Virus record (IMG/VR): IMGVR_UViG_3300042154_001170
Location: 1 to 30,174 of that record
DNA: 30,174 nucleotides
Strand: one strand, 5' to 3'
Origin: a virus
In this document: positions 7,565 through 29,960 of the stretch, in pieces
Layout of the letters: each line of letters opens with the position of its first letter
Position numbering within the stretch: the first letter of the stretch is position 1
Notes under the pieces: generated by a model
Databases searched by the model: none
What the model saw: the letters and a program-made list of their open reading frames with translations, nothing else
Told to the model about the DNA's origin: nothing
Translations under genes and position numbers: made by a program

Positions 7565-9372
7565 TGGCAGACAAAGTAGTAAGTTTAGAATTTAACGTCA
7601 AGACTGCCGGAGCGGTAACCGAGATAAACAAGGTTACCAAGGCCACCGAGGGGGCAACGTCTGCTACCATTGATTATGAAAAGCAGCTAAATGATATAAA
7701 GAAAGCAACTGACGGAGGCGGCTTCAAAGATTTATCAAGGGCATTAAAAGAGTATCAGGATATAGCTTTAAAAGCTGGTGAAACGACACCAATAGGAAGG
7801 CAAGCTTTAGCCGAAGCCGGGGAGCTTAAAGATAGGTTACTTGATTTAAAAGGTGCTATTAAAACAACAGGCCAGGACGGTTTAGCCTTGCAGGGTTCTT
7901 TACAATTGGGTGGCGGTATAGTAGCTGGATTCGGTGCGGTTCAAGGTGTTATGGCTTTAGTTGGTTCTGAGTCCGAAGACTTACAAAAAACTTTGGTTAA
8001 GCTTCAAGCGGTACAAGCTACTTTGGCAAGTGTTGAAGAGATACGTTCTGTTTTAGAAAAAGAATCGGCATTAAGAATAACGGCGGTAACGATAGCAGAA
8101 AAGGGAAGGGCAGCAGCTACGGCACTTGCAACAATTGTTACTAATGCCGGTATAATGAGCTTAAGAGCTTTTAAAATAGCTTTAGCGGCTACCGGTATCG
8201 GTGCAATAGTAGTTGTTTTAATTGCAGCAGCTGAGGCTATGGGGTTGTTTGGAGACTCAGCAGATGACACAGCAAAGAAGGTCGAAGATTTAAATAAAAA
8301 ATTAGAAAAACAATCTGACTTAACTAAGAAATTAAATGAAGATATAGATAATAATACCAAGGTTCAAAAGTTAAAAGCTCAAATAGCTGGCAAAACTGAG
8401 GCTGATATTATACAGATTGAAAAGGAAGCACAAGCCGAAAAAACTAAAAACCTTTATAATTATTATTTACAAACGCAAAAGGCAAATGATAGTATAAAGG
8501 CAAATCAAAAAGCAAGTGCAGAAGATAGGTTAACGTTTTTAAAAAATGAACAAGACGCTTATAATACATGGCAAAATTCAGTTAATGAAACTTTAATAAT
8601 TAATCTAGAAAAAGAAAAAGAGTTAGCCGATAAAGCTAGAGAAAGAGAAAAAGCTGCAGAGGAAAAAAGGAAAGCCGATTTAAAAAAGGCAGCTGATGAT
8701 AGGAGGGCAAAAGAAAAGGAATGGCAAGCAGAACTACAAGCAGATAAAGATAAATTAGCAGAGGATGTTAAGAAAAAAGAAGCTGAGGATTTTGCTATTC
8801 AACAATTAACATTATCATTAAGATATGAAGAAAGGGCAAAACAAGATCAGATTCGAAGAGACAAAGAAAAAGCTTACGATCAAGAGGTTCAAGATACTAA
8901 AATAATGTTAGCATGGCAAGGAGCTAACTTGATAAATCAGTTAATGGAGTTAACTGCTAACAAATCAAAAGCGAATGCGGAGAGAGCGTTTAAAATTAAT
9001 AAAGCATATCAATTAGCGGTTGCAATTAATGACGGGTATAAGGCGGTTTTATCAACTTATGCAGAAACAAAAGGCGGCCCTATATTAAAGGGTATAGCAG
9101 CTGGTTTAGCCGGTGCTTTTGCTGGTGTTCAAATAGCTAAAATATCACAATCAAAATTTGATAGTACAAAATTTGATAAAACTTCAAGTAATGTTCCAGG
9201 TGGTGATCTTACTGCTGCTGCACCAACACAAACACAAGCTCCACAAACTCCAGGTAGGGTAAGCAATTTAACAGGAAGCCAAACAACAACAGTAAAAGCC
9301 ATAGTAGTAGAAAGCGACATCACAACAACACAAAAAAGAATTAATTCAATTCAAGAAATAGCGAAAATATGA
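7564..9372 (+). CDS. Tail tape measure protein
   Basis: This 602-aa protein has the layout of a tape measure protein. It has a Lys/Thr/Ala-rich N-terminus, hydrophobic segments near residues 115-135 and 203-226 (the latter GIGAIVVVLIAAAEAMGL), a long Lys/Glu/Ala coiled coil from about 235 to 430, a small hydrophobic stretch around 510-530, and a Gln/Thr/Pro-rich tail. It sets tail length and is coated by the chaperones before the tube polymerises. At roughly 1.5 angstrom per residue, a rule of thumb for the family, it predicts a tail near 90 nm. It lies about 5.7 kb downstream of the chaperone gene, not next to it. The ATG overlaps the previous stop. Confidence 0.85.
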   Translation: MADKVVSLEFNVKTAGAVTEINKVTKATEGATSATIDYEKQLNDIKKATDGGGFKDLSRALKEYQDIALKAGETTPIGRQALAEAGELKDRLLDLKGAIKTTGQDGLALQGSLQLGGGIVAGFGAVQGVMALVGSESEDLQKTLVKLQAVQATLASVEEIRSVLEKESALRITAVTIAEKGRAAATALATIVTNAGIMSLRAFKIALAATGIGAIVVVLIAAAEAMGLFGDSADDTAKKVEDLNKKLEKQSDLTKKLNEDIDNNTKVQKLKAQIAGKTEADIIQIEKEAQAEKTKNLYNYYLQTQKANDSIKANQKASAEDRLTFLKNEQDAYNTWQNSVNETLIINLEKEKELADKAREREKAAEEKRKADLKKAADDRRAKEKEWQAELQADKDKLAEDVKKKEAEDFAIQQLTLSLRYEERAKQDQIRRDKEKAYDQEVQDTKIMLAWQGANLINQLMELTANKSKANAERAFKINKAYQLAVAINDGYKAVLSTYAETKGGPILKGIAAGLAGAFAGVQIAKISQSKFDSTKFDKTSSNVPGGDLTAAAPTQTQAPQTPGRVSNLTGSQTTTVKAIVVESDITTTQKRINSIQEIAKI

Positions 9373-9947
9373 AACTACCAATATACAATTTAGAAATTAA
9401 CGAAGACGACCAAGACACAGGGGTGAACTTTGTGGCACTTGTGGACACTCCGGCAATAGAACGCAACTGGGTTGCGTTTAACAAGCAGCAAAAGTTCATA
9501 GCAAACGAGGATAAACAGATTGTTTCTGGTCCGCTCATGGTTGCAGATTTACCTATTTACCGACAAGATGCCATTTTAGGAGAATATTACGCGGTGTTCA
9601 CTGCCGATACAATAGAAAAGATAGTAAATAAATTCTTTAAAACCGGCATGATTCATAATGTAAACCTTATGCACGATGCTTCACAAGTTGTTAATGGTGC
9701 TTACATGATCGAAAGCTACATAATCAACAGAGAAAAGGGCATTAACCCACCAAAAGGATTTGAAGGAATTTCAGACGGGAGCTGGTTCGGTTCGTTCAAA
9801 GTAGAGAATCAAGACATTTGGAAGCGAATTAAAGAGGGTGAGTTTAAAGGATTCAGTATTGAGGGCGCATTTGATCATTTGTTTTATGTTGACAAGGAGC
9901 AAAAAGCTATAAATGAAATAATCGATATTATTAAGGCAATAGAGTAA
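9369..9947 (+). CDS. XkdF-like prohead protease
   Basis: This 192-aa protein matches the XkdF-like phage serine protease family, which cleaves scaffold and capsid precursors during head maturation. Supporting segments are VSGPLMVADLPIYR (52-65), GEYYAVFTADTIEKIV (71-86), and GFSIEG (162-167). By analogy with other prohead proteases, H102 (in NLMHD) and S163 (in GFSIEG) are the likely catalytic residues; that assignment is an inference. The gene starts with an ATGA overlap from the tape measure gene and is followed by the scaffold-like and capsid genes, the usual order for a head maturation set. Confidence 0.8.
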   Translation: MKLPIYNLEINEDDQDTGVNFVALVDTPAIERNWVAFNKQQKFIANEDKQIVSGPLMVADLPIYRQDAILGEYYAVFTADTIEKIVNKFFKTGMIHNVNLMHDASQVVNGAYMIESYIINREKGINPPKGFEGISDGSWFGSFKVENQDIWKRIKEGEFKGFSIEGAFDHLFYVDKEQKAINEIIDIIKAIE

Positions 9948-25090: not shown

Positions 25091-25546
25091 ATGAAGGCAT
25101 TGCAGATACTTAATGAAATGGCATTCGAGAGATTGTGTGCCATTTCAACAATGCCAAGACATACAATCCCAAAGCCTAAATTTAGCGATAGTTCAGCAAA
25201 CAATTTGACTAAAGCTATTATAAAATATATCGAATTAATGGGTTACCAAGCCGAAAGAATAAGTAATACAGGCCGGTATGTAGACAACACAAAAAAATTC
25301 AAGAATATCCAAGGGCAACAAATACAAGTCGGATCCGGTCAATACATACCAGGGACGGGAACAAATGGCACTGCCGACATTAGCGCGACAATCAAAGGAA
25401 AGTCAGTTAAGATAGAAGTAAAATTCGGTAAGGATAGGCAAAGCGAAGCACAAAAAGACTATCAATTAACTATTGAAAGATCAGGCGGTATTTATTACAT
25501 AGCTAAGGATTTTGAAACATTTTATAACTTTTTCCAAACATTATGA
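25091..25546 (+). CDS. VRR-NUC-like nuclease
   Basis: Started at the ATG at 25091, just after the upstream stop, this is a 151-aa protein of the PD-(D/E)xK type. It has an N-terminal helix with KAIIKYIELMGYQAERIS (41-58), then GTADI (D96), IEVKFG (E109, K111) and a following Gln-containing helix (DRQSEAQKDYQL). That is the order of VRR-NUC nucleases, which act on branched or flap DNA. A resolvase or repair role during replication is likely. The frame extends upstream to 25061, but that part overlaps the SSB-like gene. The stop overlaps the methyltransferase start (ATGA). Confidence 0.78.
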   Translation: MKALQILNEMAFERLCAISTMPRHTIPKPKFSDSSANNLTKAIIKYIELMGYQAERISNTGRYVDNTKKFKNIQGQQIQVGSGQYIPGTGTNGTADISATIKGKSVKIEVKFGKDRQSEAQKDYQLTIERSGGIYYIAKDFETFYNFFQTL

Positions 25547-26148
25547 CAATAACAAACGAGGATAATATGGAGTTAATGGCTAGATATCCTGATAAATATT
25601 TTGAGCTTGCTATTGTGGATCCGCCGTATGGGATAAATATAACTAATGAATGTATGGGAGGAAGAAAAAATATTAAACCAAATAAAAATAAAAATTGGGA
25701 TAATGAAATACCAAATAAACAATACTTTGAAGAATTATTTAGAATTTCAAAAAATCAAATAATTTGGGGAGGTAATTATTTTAATCTTCCTATTAGTAGA
25801 TATTTTATTATTTGGGATAAAGGTGAAACAATGTATGGGAGAGATTTTGCTGAGTGTGAATATGCTTGGGTATATAAAGGCGGTACAAGAATATATAAAA
25901 AATCACCTAATCAACCTGAACGTATTCACCCAACACAAAAGCCAGTCGCTCTTTACAAATGGATTCTTGATAAATACGCCAAGCCTGGAGATAAAATACT
26001 TGATACACATTTAGGTTCAGGTTCAATTGCCATAGCTTGCCATGATTATGGATTTGATTTAACAGCGTGCGAACTTGACAAAGAATACTTTGATAAAGCA
26101 ATGCAGAGAATAAATAATCATACTAACCAATTAAATCTATTCAAATGA
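25543..26148 (+). CDS. DNA methyltransferase 1 (N6-adenine or N4-cytosine, beta class)
   Basis: This 201-aa enzyme has the motif order of a beta-class amino-methyltransferase: catalytic DPPY (26-29) first, a short variable region, HPTQKP (129-134), then the SAM-binding motif LDTHLGSGS (153-161). It transfers a methyl group from S-adenosylmethionine to adenine N6 or cytosine N4. The small recognition region suggests a short target. No restriction enzyme lies next to it, so it is an orphan. Likely roles are protection against host restriction or marking of the phage's own sites. It overlaps genes on both sides by 4 bases. Confidence 0.9.
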   Translation: MTITNEDNMELMARYPDKYFELAIVDPPYGINITNECMGGRKNIKPNKNKNWDNEIPNKQYFEELFRISKNQIIWGGNYFNLPISRYFIIWDKGETMYGRDFAECEYAWVYKGGTRIYKKSPNQPERIHPTQKPVALYKWILDKYAKPGDKILDTHLGSGSIAIACHDYGFDLTACELDKEYFDKAMQRINNHTNQLNLFK

Positions 26149-26369
26149 GACCTGAAGACAAAGCAAAACAACTACATGACAATGCCTATAAGATACTTTA
26201 TTTAGAGGGCAATTCACCACTAGTTAACAACCTTTCAAAGAATGTAGCTAGAGTAACTATTAACGAATTTATTAAATATCACGAGCGAGAATGGGAGGGT
26301 AATTATGGCAGATGCCCAGGACTTATCTATTGGGAAGAAGTTTTATATCACCTTGAAAATTTAGAGTAA
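26145..26369 (+). CDS. Small helical phage protein, same pattern as the gene at 23472
   Basis: This 74-aa protein starts MRPEDKAKQLHDNAY and ends YWEEVLYHLENLE, with a central VARVTINEFIKYHE. The start and end match the pattern of the 65-aa protein at 23472, so they are probably distant paralogs. The function is unknown. It is the last gene before the long gene-free region. Confidence 0.6.
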   Translation: MRPEDKAKQLHDNAYKILYLEGNSPLVNNLSKNVARVTINEFIKYHEREWEGNYGRCPGLIYWEEVLYHLENLE

Positions 26370-26384
26370 AAATTACCGTCACGC

Positions 26385-26528
26385 GTAACTTGTTGATAAT
26401 CAGCTCCGCGACGCAAAACGCAAATCCTTATTAGACGTTTTAAACAGAGTTGAAAATTTACAGGGGGTACCCGTTTTTTTTGAATATTTTCCGTCATATC
26501 GTCGCGGAGCTGATAATCAAGAAGTTAC
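26385..26528. repeat. 29-bp inverted repeat with 86-bp spacer
   Basis: The left arm (26385-26413) and the right arm (26500-26528) are inverted copies with two mismatches. Each arm contains ATCAGCTCCGCGACG or its complement. The arms end at a CGTCGCG/CGCGACG core on the spacer side, the same core as the tandem repeats downstream. The spacer is AT-rich and contains the palindrome GGGTACCC (26465-26472) followed by T8. The arms could form a cruciform or bind two copies of a protein. Confidence 0.9.
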
Positions 26529-26550
26529 AAGACACGATAAATTAAATTAT

Positions 26551-26610
26551 CGTCGCGCTTAGTTGTTTTCCGTCGCGCTTTTAAATTTTCCGTCGCGTTT
26601 TAAACTATTT
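26551..26610 (+). repeat. Three 20-bp iteron-like tandem repeats
   Basis: CGTCGCG starts at exactly 26551, 26571 and 26591. The first two units share CGTCGCGCTT and end in GTTTTC or ATTTTC; the third reads CGTCGCGTTTTAAA. The 20-bp period is close to two turns of the helix, so bound proteins would lie on one face. The -33 box of the promoter for the structured RNA starts 12 bases downstream. Confidence 0.85.
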
Positions 26611-26621
26611 TTTTAAATAGT

Positions 26622-26653
26622 ATTGTTATTTTAAATTATTATTTATATATTTG
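26622..26653 (+). promoter_or_regulatory. Promoter for the structured RNA
   Basis: ATTG (26622-26625), 20 bases, then TATATTTG (26646-26653) fits the Bacteroidota consensus with one mismatch in the -33 box. Transcription would start near 26657-26661, just at the first hairpin of the RNA. The iteron-like repeats and a 7-bp inverted repeat lie directly upstream. Confidence 0.75.
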
Positions 26654-26659
26654 CATTAC

Positions 26660-26751
26660 AGTTACGCTCTCACAATATAGTAACTAAAGGTATTAGCCTT
26701 ATTAAATGCGTGTAGATGTGAGAGCCTACACAAGTTTAGTAAGGCTTTTTT
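26660..26751 (+). ncRNA. Structured RNA with loop-loop complementarity and terminator hairpin
   Basis: Hairpin 1 is AGTTAC/GTAACT (26660-26665 with 26680-26685) with a 14-nt loop. Hairpin 2 has a 12-bp outer stem (26695-26706 with 26735-26746, one G-U), a 3x3 internal loop, a 6-bp inner stem GTGTAG/CTACAC (26710-26715 with 26726-26731) and a 10-nt loop. Six T follow (26746-26751), so hairpin 2 is an intrinsic terminator. Loop 1 (GCTCTCACA, 26666-26674) is exactly complementary to loop 2 (TGTGAGAGC, 26717-26725) over 9 nt. A promoter starts it. It could be a stand-alone small RNA or an attenuator for the methyltransferase at 26768. No named family is recognised. Confidence 0.7.
26695..26751 (+). 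terminator. Intrinsic terminator of the structured RNA
   Basis: AGCCTTATTAAA (26695-26706) pairs with TTTAGTAAGGCT (26735-26746) and six T follow. It ends 16 bases before the ATG of the second methyltransferase gene, so any transcript from the promoter at 26622 must pass it to reach that gene and the primase-helicase. Confidence 0.85.
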
Positions 26752-26767
26752 ATTTAATTTTATTATT

Positions 26768-27565
26768 ATGCTTATTAGAGATCATTTCCAAAATTTTAAA
26801 AGTTATAATTTGCCAAAGGCACAATTAATAATTGCAGATATTCCATATAATTTAGGAGTTAATGCTTATGCTTCAAATCCGGCCTGGTATGAAGATGGTG
26901 ATAATAAAAATGGAGAAAGTAAATTGGCTGGTAAATCTTTTTTTGATACTGATAATGATTTTAGACCGGCTGAATTTATGCATTTTTGCTCCACTATGTT
27001 AAAAAAAGAACCAAAAGAAAAAGGGCAATCACCTTGCATGATTATATTTTGCGCATTTGATCAACAAATGTATTTAATTGATTTAGCTAAAAAACACGGA
27101 TTAAATAATTATATTAATTTAGTATTTAGAAAAAACTTTTCTGCACAAGTTTTAAAAGCTAATATGAAAGTAGTAGGTAATTGCGAATATGGATTATTAT
27201 TATATAGAGAAAAACTTCCAAAATTTAATAATAAAGGAAAAATGATTTTTAATTGTTTTGATTGGCCAAGAGATAATGAAAGCGAAAAAATACATCCAAC
27301 GCAAAAACCAGTGAAATTATTAGAAAAATTAATAGAATTATTTACAGATAAAGGAGATGTTGTTATTGATCCATGTGCTGGGTCTGGAAGTAGTTTAATA
27401 GCTGCTGATAATTTAGAAAGAAAATCACATGGTTTTGAAATAAAAAAAGATTTTTATTTATTAGCTTCAAAATGGATTGAAGAAAACAAAAAACAAATTG
27501 ATGAAATCAAGGAATTAGGATATGCAAAAACAAAATTAAATATTATAAATCCTACCTTATTTTAA
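26768..27565 (+). CDS. DNA methyltransferase 2 (beta class, DIPY variant)
   Basis: This 265-aa enzyme has the same motif order as the first methyltransferase: a catalytic-type motif ADIPY (23-27, DIPY in place of DPPY), IHPTQKP (175-181), and SAM-binding VIDPCAGSGSSL (199-210). Its recognition region is longer and unlike that of the first, so the target is probably different. The gene is more AT-rich than its neighbours, which may indicate transfer. It lies just after the terminator of the structured RNA and 7 bases before the primase-helicase gene. Whether the Ile in DIPY changes activity is unknown. Confidence 0.85.
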   Translation: MLIRDHFQNFKSYNLPKAQLIIADIPYNLGVNAYASNPAWYEDGDNKNGESKLAGKSFFDTDNDFRPAEFMHFCSTMLKKEPKEKGQSPCMIIFCAFDQQMYLIDLAKKHGLNNYINLVFRKNFSAQVLKANMKVVGNCEYGLLLYREKLPKFNNKGKMIFNCFDWPRDNESEKIHPTQKPVKLLEKLIELFTDKGDVVIDPCAGSGSSLIAADNLERKSHGFEIKKDFYLLASKWIEENKKQIDEIKELGYAKTKLNIINPTLF

Positions 27566-27572
27566 TTTATAT

Positions 27573-29960
27573 ATGACTAACTTCAATCCCATTATTTCCA
27601 TATTTAAAAACTTATATGGATCTAAAGAAACTCCCTATAATCTTAAACTATTAGAAGTTTATAACCGTATTAAAAATGGTTATCCTGATCTTATATCTAA
27701 GATTAATATAATTAGACAATCAACAGATAAAAATCAAATAAAGAAAACTAAAGAATCTTTATTGGGTATTATGTTTAATGGAACATTCCAGGAACGAAAC
27801 GATAATGGACTTATAGAACATTCCGGACTTTGTATATTGGATTTTGACAAGTACCCTAGTATTGAAATAATGAATCAGGAACGATCAAAATTGATTTCTG
27901 ATAAGTATATACTAATGGTGTTTACTTCTCCTTCAGGAGAGGGTTTAAAAGCCCTAATTAAGATTCCTAAATCTGATAAGCTCGAACACAAACGCAGATT
28001 CAATGCCTTTAAGAATTATATTAAATCAGATTACTTTGATGATAAAAATATTAATATAAGCCGGGTTTGTTTTGAGTCTTATGATCCTAATATCTATTTA
28101 AATTTAAATTCTGAACTATTCCAGGATATTGAAGAGGATAAAGGATTTAATTATATTGATAAAGTCCCAACATGCATTCTTTATGATGAGCAAAGAAAGA
28201 TTGATCTAATAATGAAATTCAATTGGCAAAAGGATTTTATAGAAGGTGAGCGTAATCATTATATATTTAATATTGCTGGTGCATTCTGCGAATATGGAAT
28301 AAATCAAACAAGCGCAGAAGGTTACATTTTAAATAATATTGTTATAGGTGATTTTAGCGAAAATGAAGCAAAAATAGCTATAAGATCAGCTTATCGTAAA
28401 CGTCAATTTGATTCTAAATACTTTGAAGATTATTCAGCAGTTAATAATATTAAAAACAAAATTAAGGCCGGAATACCTAAAGAAATAATTAAGAAGGAAC
28501 TTAATGTTAATGATGAGGTTATAGATGAAATCAAAAGCCAACTTATTGAGGCAGATGACACATTTTGGGAAATTAAAACAGATAAGAACGGAAACGAAAA
28601 AATACAAATAGAGCCTTTTAAATATGCTTCTTTTTTAACAAAGAACGGATTCAATAAATATTATCCTGAAACTTCAGAAAGTCCGACATTTGTAAGGGTT
28701 AGAGAAAACAAAGTAAATATTTCAAGCAGCACTCAGATAAAGGATTTTGTACTTGATTTCTTATTTAGCAAAGGTTTAATTAACGTTTGGAATTATTGCA
28801 GTAAAAGCCCTTATCTATTCCAGGAATCACATTTAAACATGATTGATTCTATTTATATTAAGATGCTTTCAGATACTAAAGAAACTAGTTTTATTCCTTA
28901 TAAAAATGGTGTTGCTAAGATAACAGCTGATAATATTGAATTATTAAACTACATTGATGTTGACGGTTATATTTGGGAGAATCAAATAATAAATAGGGAT
29001 TTTATTATTGATAAAAATAACACCAACGACTTTAAAGACTTTATAAGCAAAGTAAGTAATAATGATGCTCAAAGAATTGAATCTTTAGAATCTACTTTAG
29101 GTTATTGCCTTCATACCTTTAAAGACAAAACAGACCAAAAATCTATTATTTTTAATGATCAAGAAATTGACGATAACCCTAATGGAGGTTCCGGAAAGTC
29201 TTTAGTATTAAATGCACTAAACTACATACGAAAGTGCGTTAAAATAGACGGTAAGGCATTCGATCCTAAAAAATCAGACTTTGTTTATCAAAGGGTAAAC
29301 CTTGATACTCAAATATTAGCCTTTGACGATGTGAAAAAGAATTTTAACTTTGAGCAGTTGTTTTCTTTAATTACCGAGGGTATAACAGTTAACAGAAAAA
29401 ACAAAGATGAAATATTTATCCCGTTCGAACGTTCACCAAAAATTATAATTACAACTAATTACGTTATTAATGGAGTTGGAAGCTCCCACGAACGCAGAAG
29501 GCATGAAATAGAATTCTTCCAATATTTTAACCAAAAGAAAAGTCCTTTAAATGAATACGGTCGTTTGTTATTTGATCAATGGGATTTTAAGGACTGGAAT
29601 AAATTTGACAATTATATGATTAATAACCTTCAGAAATTCCTTAAGAATGGACTTAACAAAACTATTAGCATTAACGCAGATGTTAAAAGATTGATCCAGG
29701 CAACTACTAAAGATTTCTTTGATTGGGCAGAAGATGGAAACCTACAATTAAATACAAGGCTTTATAATAACGATCTTTTTAACTCTTTTTTAAATGAATA
29801 TAAAAACTATAAAGAACTTAATATCAAATCTTTATTAAAATGGGTAAAAGAATATGCAGACTTTAAAGGTTATGAGTTTACAAAGATTAACGATCACAAA
29901 GGAAGAGGAGTTATTTTAGCAACAGAAAAACAATTAGTAGACAATGAATGTCCATTTTAA
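27573..29960 (+). CDS. Primase-helicase (VirE N-terminal/BT4734-like primase part plus SF3-type helicase)
   Basis: This 795-aa protein probably primes and unwinds phage DNA at the fork. Residues about 60-185 resemble the BT4734/VirE N-terminal domain found in primases of Bacteroidota elements: HSGLCILDFD (83-92), FTSPSGEGLKALIKI (117-131), RVCFESYDPNIYLN (164-177). A linking helical region follows. The C-terminal part is a viral SF3/D5-like ATPase: Walker A GGSGKS (about 537-542), Walker B ILAFDD (about 580-585), and SSHERRRHE (about 636-644) as likely arginine finger. The order fits a self-sufficient replicative enzyme. It lies downstream of the candidate origin, and the next gene overlaps by 17 bases. 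Confidence 0.85.
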   Translation: MTNFNPIISIFKNLYGSKETPYNLKLLEVYNRIKNGYPDLISKINIIRQSTDKNQIKKTKESLLGIMFNGTFQERNDNGLIEHSGLCILDFDKYPSIEIMNQERSKLISDKYILMVFTSPSGEGLKALIKIPKSDKLEHKRRFNAFKNYIKSDYFDDKNINISRVCFESYDPNIYLNLNSELFQDIEEDKGFNYIDKVPTCILYDEQRKIDLIMKFNWQKDFIEGERNHYIFNIAGAFCEYGINQTSAEGYILNNIVIGDFSENEAKIAIRSAYRKRQFDSKYFEDYSAVNNIKNKIKAGIPKEIIKKELNVNDEVIDEIKSQLIEADDTFWEIKTDKNGNEKIQIEPFKYASFLTKNGFNKYYPETSESPTFVRVRENKVNISSSTQIKDFVLDFLFSKGLINVWNYCSKSPYLFQESHLNMIDSIYIKMLSDTKETSFIPYKNGVAKITADNIELLNYIDVDGYIWENQIINRDFIIDKNNTNDFKDFISKVSNNDAQRIESLESTLGYCLHTFKDKTDQKSIIFNDQEIDDNPNGGSGKSLVLNALNYIRKCVKIDGKAFDPKKSDFVYQRVNLDTQILAFDDVKKNFNFEQLFSLITEGITVNRKNKDEIFIPFERSPKIIITTNYVINGVGSSHERRRHEIEFFQYFNQKKSPLNEYGRLLFDQWDFKDWNKFDNYMINNLQKFLKNGLNKTISINADVKRLIQATTKDFFDWAEDGNLQLNTRLYNNDLFNSFLNEYKNYKELNIKSLLKWVKEYADFKGYEFTKINDHKGRGVILATEKQLVDNECPF

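Follow-up and report, generated by a model that had tools for sequence, protein, structure and literature searches.

In plasmids of the pT181 and pIP501 type the replication initiator genes are preceded by a leader in which a terminator is set against an antiterminator, and a separate antisense RNA pairs with this leader. The CI system of phage P4 comprises long-range segments and a processed RNA, operates in the prophage and causes early termination before the replication genes. In the kissing complex of ColE1 RNAI and RNAII the loops, about 7-8 nt long and paired throughout, come from two molecules. The put RNA of phage HK022 brings about antitermination by binding directly to polymerase and is not known to carry a terminator of its own. 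The IsrK promoter of Salmonella Gifsy-1 gives rise both to a short terminated RNA and to a read-through mRNA of downstream phage genes, among them one for an antirepressor (PMC4825925).

The onset of DNA metabolism is poorly known in Bacteroidetes phages. The stretch of DNA analyzed in this work (the window, i.e. the whole virus record of 30,174 bases) is a Bacteroidetes-phage contig, the genes of which were assigned by PHROG and Pfam to a portal protein, tail proteins, an ERF recombinase, Gp157, two N6/N4 methyltransferases and a primase/helicase. An RNA element is located between an open reading frame and the second methyltransferase gene, with the following features:

26145-26369: open reading frame 5′ of the element
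26646-26653, + strand: promoter -7 box TATATTTG of the Bacteroidetes sigma-A type, from the sequence, with a predicted start at about 26658
26660-26685, + strand: hairpin 1, from the fold, with stem AGTTAC/GTAACT and the 14-nt loop GCTCTCACAATATA
26666-26674, + strand: kissing strand of loop 1, GCTCTCACA, the exact complement of 26717-26725, its first 8 nt being the family core
26686-26694, + strand: linker between hairpin 1 and the terminator, differing from relative to relative in both length and sequence
26695-26746, + strand: terminator hairpin, from the fold, with outer stem 26695-26707/26734-26746 and inner stem 26710-26715/26726-26731
26716-26725: terminator loop of 10 nt, ATGTGAGAGC
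26717-26725, + strand: kissing strand of loop 2, TGTGAGAGC, within the terminator loop, the exact complement of 26666-26674
26746-26751, + strand: U-tract of the intrinsic terminator, from the sequence
26768-27565, + strand: N6/N4 DNA methyltransferase (Pfam PF01555, E 3.4e-23), the first downstream gene
27573-29960, + strand: primase/helicase, the next gene in the same run (BT4734-like N domain and PriCT_1 in Pfam; primase/helicase in PHROG)

In the minimum free energy fold (-27.9 kcal/mol, z = -4.1, none of 200 shuffles being equally good) exactly the two hairpins are formed and both loops are open. The promoter, the two hairpins, the 9-nt loop match and the terminator named in a preliminary description of this locus are all present in the sequence. 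We calculate that loops of 14 and 10 nt would match over 9 nt by chance with a probability of about 12/4^9, or 5e-5. The -7 box consensus of Bacteroidetes/Flavobacterium sigma-A, TAnnTTTG, is located at -12 to -5 (PMC9723704). Since the box occupies these positions, the RNA is predicted to start at about 26658 and, with this start, to be about 94 nt long; the type of the promoter named earlier is corrected to the Bacteroidetes one, and the earlier estimate of an RNA of about 92 nt from about 26660 is replaced by these values.

Upstream of the element the window contains an inverted repeat (26370-26543, arms of 44 nt, 82% complementary and 86 nt apart, including CGTCGCGGAGCTGATAATCA), and five YCGTCGCG-type 10-mers, reaching position 26597, adjoin the predicted RNA promoter on its upstream side. 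The repeat and the 10-mer array could be a replication origin or a protein-binding array. N6/N4 methyltransferase genes stand on both sides of the element (25543-26148 and 26768-27565), and the leader precedes only the second.

More than 100 relatives with both hairpins and covarying loops, the kind of homologs proposed as a check, were collected from IMG/VR contigs. A blastn search against isolate phages found Tenacibaculum phage Gundel_1, in which the copy precedes an antirepressor gene, and Flavobacterium phages hattifnatt9-1 and snusmum, in which it precedes a helicase gene; the loops in these three are GCTCTCAC/GTGAGAGC and GCTTCGAC/GTCGAAGC, both loops being altered together in the Flavobacterium phages. 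Pattern scans of IMG/VR for hairpin 1 gave 24 close relatives, all distinct; their loops are of three types, none of them broken. A covariance model built without the loop-loop pairs (R1, alignment of 76 rows) retrieved copies that have diverged further and whose stems and loops are different. When IMG/VR was scanned for the promoter and the GTTAC/GTAAC stem only, a loop complement of at least 7 nt was present in 49 of the 68 new matches examined, among the matches listed, and nearly all complements lay 33-38 nt past the stem, again among the matches listed. The GTTGC/GCAAC version of the stem was accompanied by a loop complement in 39 of 85 cases and the arbitrary stem GTCAC/GTGAC in none of 14, the latter scan serving well as a control of specificity.

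A second model (R2) was run over 14 whole isolate phage records and found the element in seven. Tenacibaculum phage JQ, Cellulophaga phage phi10:1, Flavobacterium phage FCL-2 and Polaribacter phage Freya_3 were new, all four with a loop complement of at least 7 nt (read by eye in phi10:1 and FCL-2), which brings the carriers among isolates to seven, with Flavobacterium, Tenacibaculum, Cellulophaga and Polaribacter as hosts. In the whole records of phi40:1, phi14:2, phi3:1, Ingeline_6, Molly_5, mumin6-1 and crAss001 the same model did not find the element. Throughout the relatives the TAnnTTTG box lies 4-8 nt (once 10 nt) 5′ of the hairpin stem, against a background of 0.023 per 28-nt window, and a T-run follows the terminator hairpin. 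The window has every part by which the family is recognized, namely the box near hairpin 1, the kissing strand in loop 1 and the complementary terminator loop.

In the least selection-biased comparison the terminator was detected in promoter-plus-stem matches without the use of loop 1, and the loops were compared afterwards. All 55 such matches with a terminator, among the matches listed, have a complement of at least 7 nt at the right place, as against 334 of 2750 (12%) when partners with different loops were swapped; even this fraction is reached because many loops share 7-mers. At least 27 distinct loop sequences are represented. In the R1 alignment of 76 rows each of the eight kissing pairs has changed on both sides and 94.7% of the cells are paired, the unpaired ones coming mostly from misaligned rows; the pairs of the hairpin 1 stem are 100% kept, with both-side changes at two positions. 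The outer and inner stems of the terminator covary in relatives as well, and the structure as a whole is 93.8% paired in comparison with 33-44% when slid. The preliminary description had held that homologs with one loop changed alone would speak against it: breaks of the whole helix were not found among the relatives, and single end mismatches or G-U pairs occur occasionally. The covariation is strong enough for the sequences by themselves to establish the loop-loop pairing, which supports the idea of a structured, promoter-driven RNA with genuine contact between its loops. The 9-nt match is exact in the window, and 8 of its 9 pairs form the helix conserved in the family. Terminators are common in phages, and one might take this one for an ordinary terminator with an accidental match to the upstream hairpin; the covariation, seen in dozens of different sequences, excludes that explanation, and we leave it practically no chance.

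The length of the kissing helix is kept tightly to 7-9 bp and is mostly 8 bp, and the geometry is fixed. In loop 1 the kissing strand is usually preceded by 0 nt and followed by 5-7 nt, the common arrangement (46 of 74 members) being an 8-nt strand adjoining the 5′ stem with about 6 nt after it, and loop 2 has 2 nt before and 0 nt after its strand in 55 of 74. On structural grounds, such a geometry would let an 8-bp kissing helix stack on the inner stem of the terminator.

A looser variant with short, fully paired loops of 7-8 nt has been found in L009, L041, L061, the third copy of L093 and FCL-2. A version unrelated in sequence, with the terminator GGGGGAGGC-loop-GCCGAACCC, occurs in L009 (5409-5512), L041 (330-454) and L155-L167; its fully paired 7-8-nt loops are TGTACGGA/TCCGTACA and TGTGCAG/CTGCACA. 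In L041 the variant is situated directly 5′ of a methyltransferase about 75% identical to that of the window. The hairpin pair of L061 (764-830), which precedes an open reading frame of 103 codons, has the loops GTGAGAG/CTCTCAC and an exceptionally long stem in its terminator; it is a possible further variant.

In three scans no family of Rfam 15 matched the window or ten diverse relatives, and one of these scans, taken up to E 10, gave only weak, chance-level matches; membership in an Rfam family was rejected as no score exceeded the gathering threshold, in agreement with the earlier statement that no named family has this layout. No prior description of the element was found in the openly accessible literature searched. 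It is a new RNA family, probably acting in the manner of a known kind of attenuator. In host genomes the strict pattern had two matches only, at chance level, among 84,980 species genomes. The RNA model gave one weak match in 395 Bacteroidia genomes, unlike the element when inspected, and the promoter-plus-stem pattern gave three in the same 395 genomes, the level of the reversed-pattern control, none of which shows the element. The element is phage-bound and essentially absent from the host genomes sampled.

The position of the element is that of a leader. Of 76 descriptor matches, 75 are followed by an open reading frame (30 codons or more, or continuing past the contig end) whose start is no further than 46 nt from the U-tract; by a stricter criterion 63 of 74 copies end no more than 30 nt from a start codon, compared with 11 of 58 other terminators on the same contigs. 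The gap between terminator and open reading frame is too small for another promoter. In the window, where the methyltransferase ATG (26768) begins 16 nt past the U-tract, a terminator stands between a promoter and a nearby start codon as in an attenuator. Among 62 downstream proteins there are nine DUF6291 proteins (primosomal/replication initiation in PHROG), seven NUMOD4, six HNH, two GIY-YIG and two Prim-Pol proteins, a BT4734-like primase, methyltransferases, a helicase and an antirepressor. The downstream genes share a theme of replication initiators, primases, helicase, methyltransferases, homing endonucleases and antirepressor. Position before replication and homing-endonuclease genes makes it likely that the element controls when these phages start their DNA metabolism. 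In the preliminary description transcription could continue into the second methyltransferase and the primase-helicase; the terminator does directly precede the methyltransferase, yet the link is a local one, and relatives precede many other genes. When the upstream regions of 77 of 80 relatives of the methyltransferase were inspected and the RNA model was run over all 80 loci, the element was directly upstream only in the near-identical contig L002 and, as the divergent variant, in L041, and an element tied to the methyltransferase was rejected; in L007, L034 and L052 it lies elsewhere, not before the methyltransferase relative.

Many copies before homing-endonuclease-like genes (NUMOD4/HNH, GIY-YIG) were seen, in L093 (minus strand, 1167-1646 and 9062-9751) and in L184, L190, L203, L229, L238, L255 and L413, which suggests that mobile endonuclease genes can take the leader along with them. 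At some loci (L186, L189, L220, L228, L237, L299, i.e. phi10:1, and probably L398, L401 and L409) a second conserved motif, e.g. AATAGTTATCGGTAATCTTAAAACCGTT or AAAGGTTACTCGTTATCCTAAAACGTTT, lies between the terminator and a more distant start codon; it is possibly a translational operator.

Compact phage genomes could also place a stand-alone small RNA just before a gene. Such an RNA would act in trans on host or phage, with the kissing helix merely compacting and stabilizing it. The promoter, the 5′ hairpin at the transcript start and the terminator are conserved as a single unit, and the unit is found before unrelated genes, as a small RNA gene would be; the spacing from terminator to start codon is leader-like, however, widely varying loops fit poorly with a fixed target in trans, and the loop sequence occurs elsewhere in the same locus in 12 cases versus 7.2 +/- 2.8, without significant excess. 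We regard a small RNA gene as doubtful.

Our preferred reading, to which we give a probability of roughly 0.55, is that the element is the 5′ leader of an early or replication-type phage transcript and acts as a transcription attenuator. Judging from the promoter, transcription would start 2-3 nt 5′ of hairpin 1, and 8-9 nt of the emerging terminator loop would pair with loop 1, the pairing following from covariation and its timing being presumed. The loop-loop helix might displace hairpin 1 and hold off the terminator, thereby constituting the antiterminator state, or it might coexist with the terminator as a kissing complex, which the geometry permits. Should the 3′ arm prevail at the U-tract, the product would be a stable, released RNA about 94 nt long; otherwise polymerase would read through into the gene starting about 15 nt further on. 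Polymerase speed, a phage or host protein and copies of the terminated RNA are candidates for biasing the choice.

The competing states were compared in a nested energy model, which has no pseudoknots, proteins or kinetics and cannot score the coexisting kissing form. For an RNA that stops 7 nt short of the U-tract, this model favours the loop-loop helix over hairpin 1 plus the partial terminator in 70 of 74 members; with the stem complete the helix loses in most of them, the switch points clustering between -3 and +1. For the window the modelled balance is -4.8 kcal/mol at -7 and has risen to +4.5 kcal/mol at 0. The calculated pattern resembles that of a terminator and an antiterminator balanced around the point of decision; part of it would come from the GC-rich base of the stem by itself. 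The competing fold and read-through envisaged in the preliminary description are consistent with the leader position and with this model, and the results speak neither for nor against the dimerisation of two RNA copies that it also considered. No conserved antiterminator besides the loop-loop helix was seen among relatives. A leader peptide was rejected, since the AUGAA that some members have in the terminator arm does not belong to a conserved open reading frame, and so was an antiterminator formed by linker and terminator arm (AAGG/CCTT), present only in some members.

The terminated RNA could also serve feedback or immunity, its loops pairing in trans with nascent leaders of the same kind, freeing their terminators and silencing the replication genes; the loop type would then confer specificity, in the manner of P4 CI RNA immunity or pT181-type attenuation. 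The loops are diverse yet always self-complementary, replication genes lie downstream, and phages with two or three copies have a different loop in each: most phages carry one copy, G007 three, and G428, G429, G439, G442 and G443 two, the loops always differing between copies. Because two random members share a loop with a probability of only 0.08, different loops within one genome are expected by chance and are no evidence for avoidance; moreover, intramolecular pairing should outcompete pairing in trans, and there are no prophage copies in the sampled host genomes. We find feedback of this kind unlikely. The extended picture of a widespread control system, in which every leader would serve at once as switch and as signal, the RNA it releases using its loops to silence matching leaders and the many loop types forming specificity groups that keep phages, and copies within one phage, apart, is likewise improbable.

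A polymerase-modifying element similar to put of HK022, which would suppress its own and later terminators, would also be a two-hairpin RNA opening an early phage transcript (PMC9378689), but an intrinsic terminator is obligatory in each copy here, which leaves this explanation quite improbable.

The element represents a large family of structured RNAs in Bacteroidetes phages, one that is missing from Rfam 15, with the layout, unusual for an attenuator, that the terminator's own loop pairs with a 5′ hairpin, and there are cultured carriers (FCL-2, hattifnatt9-1, Gundel_1, phi10:1, JQ and Freya_3). It resembles the pT181 and pIP501 leaders in standing before replication genes and in the presumed use of loop-loop pairing for a choice between terminator and antiterminator, and differs from them in having both loops in one sense RNA instead of a separate antisense RNA. 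A pT181-type countertranscript from the opposite strand was rejected: antisense TAnnTTTG boxes are at background level, with 11 in 74 as against 11.3 expected. With P4 CI RNA it has in common a promoter, self-complementary segments in the leader and, as predicted here, an early stop of transcription ahead of phage replication genes, whereas the P4 segments are long-range and the RNA is processed in a prophage, and no prophage copies were found here. The likeness to IsrK lies in the predicted pair of a short terminated RNA and a read-through mRNA from one promoter, and in the Gundel_1 element, which precedes an antirepressor gene; a loop-loop helix kept throughout the family is not known from IsrK. 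Complete pairing of loops about 7-8 nt long recalls ColE1 RNAI/RNAII, the difference being that here both loops belong to one molecule. Like put, the element is a two-hairpin RNA that would open an early phage transcript (PMC9378689), and unlike it has a terminator integral to the element in the window and its relatives. The resemblances to pT181, P4 CI RNA, IsrK and put are best taken as analogies.
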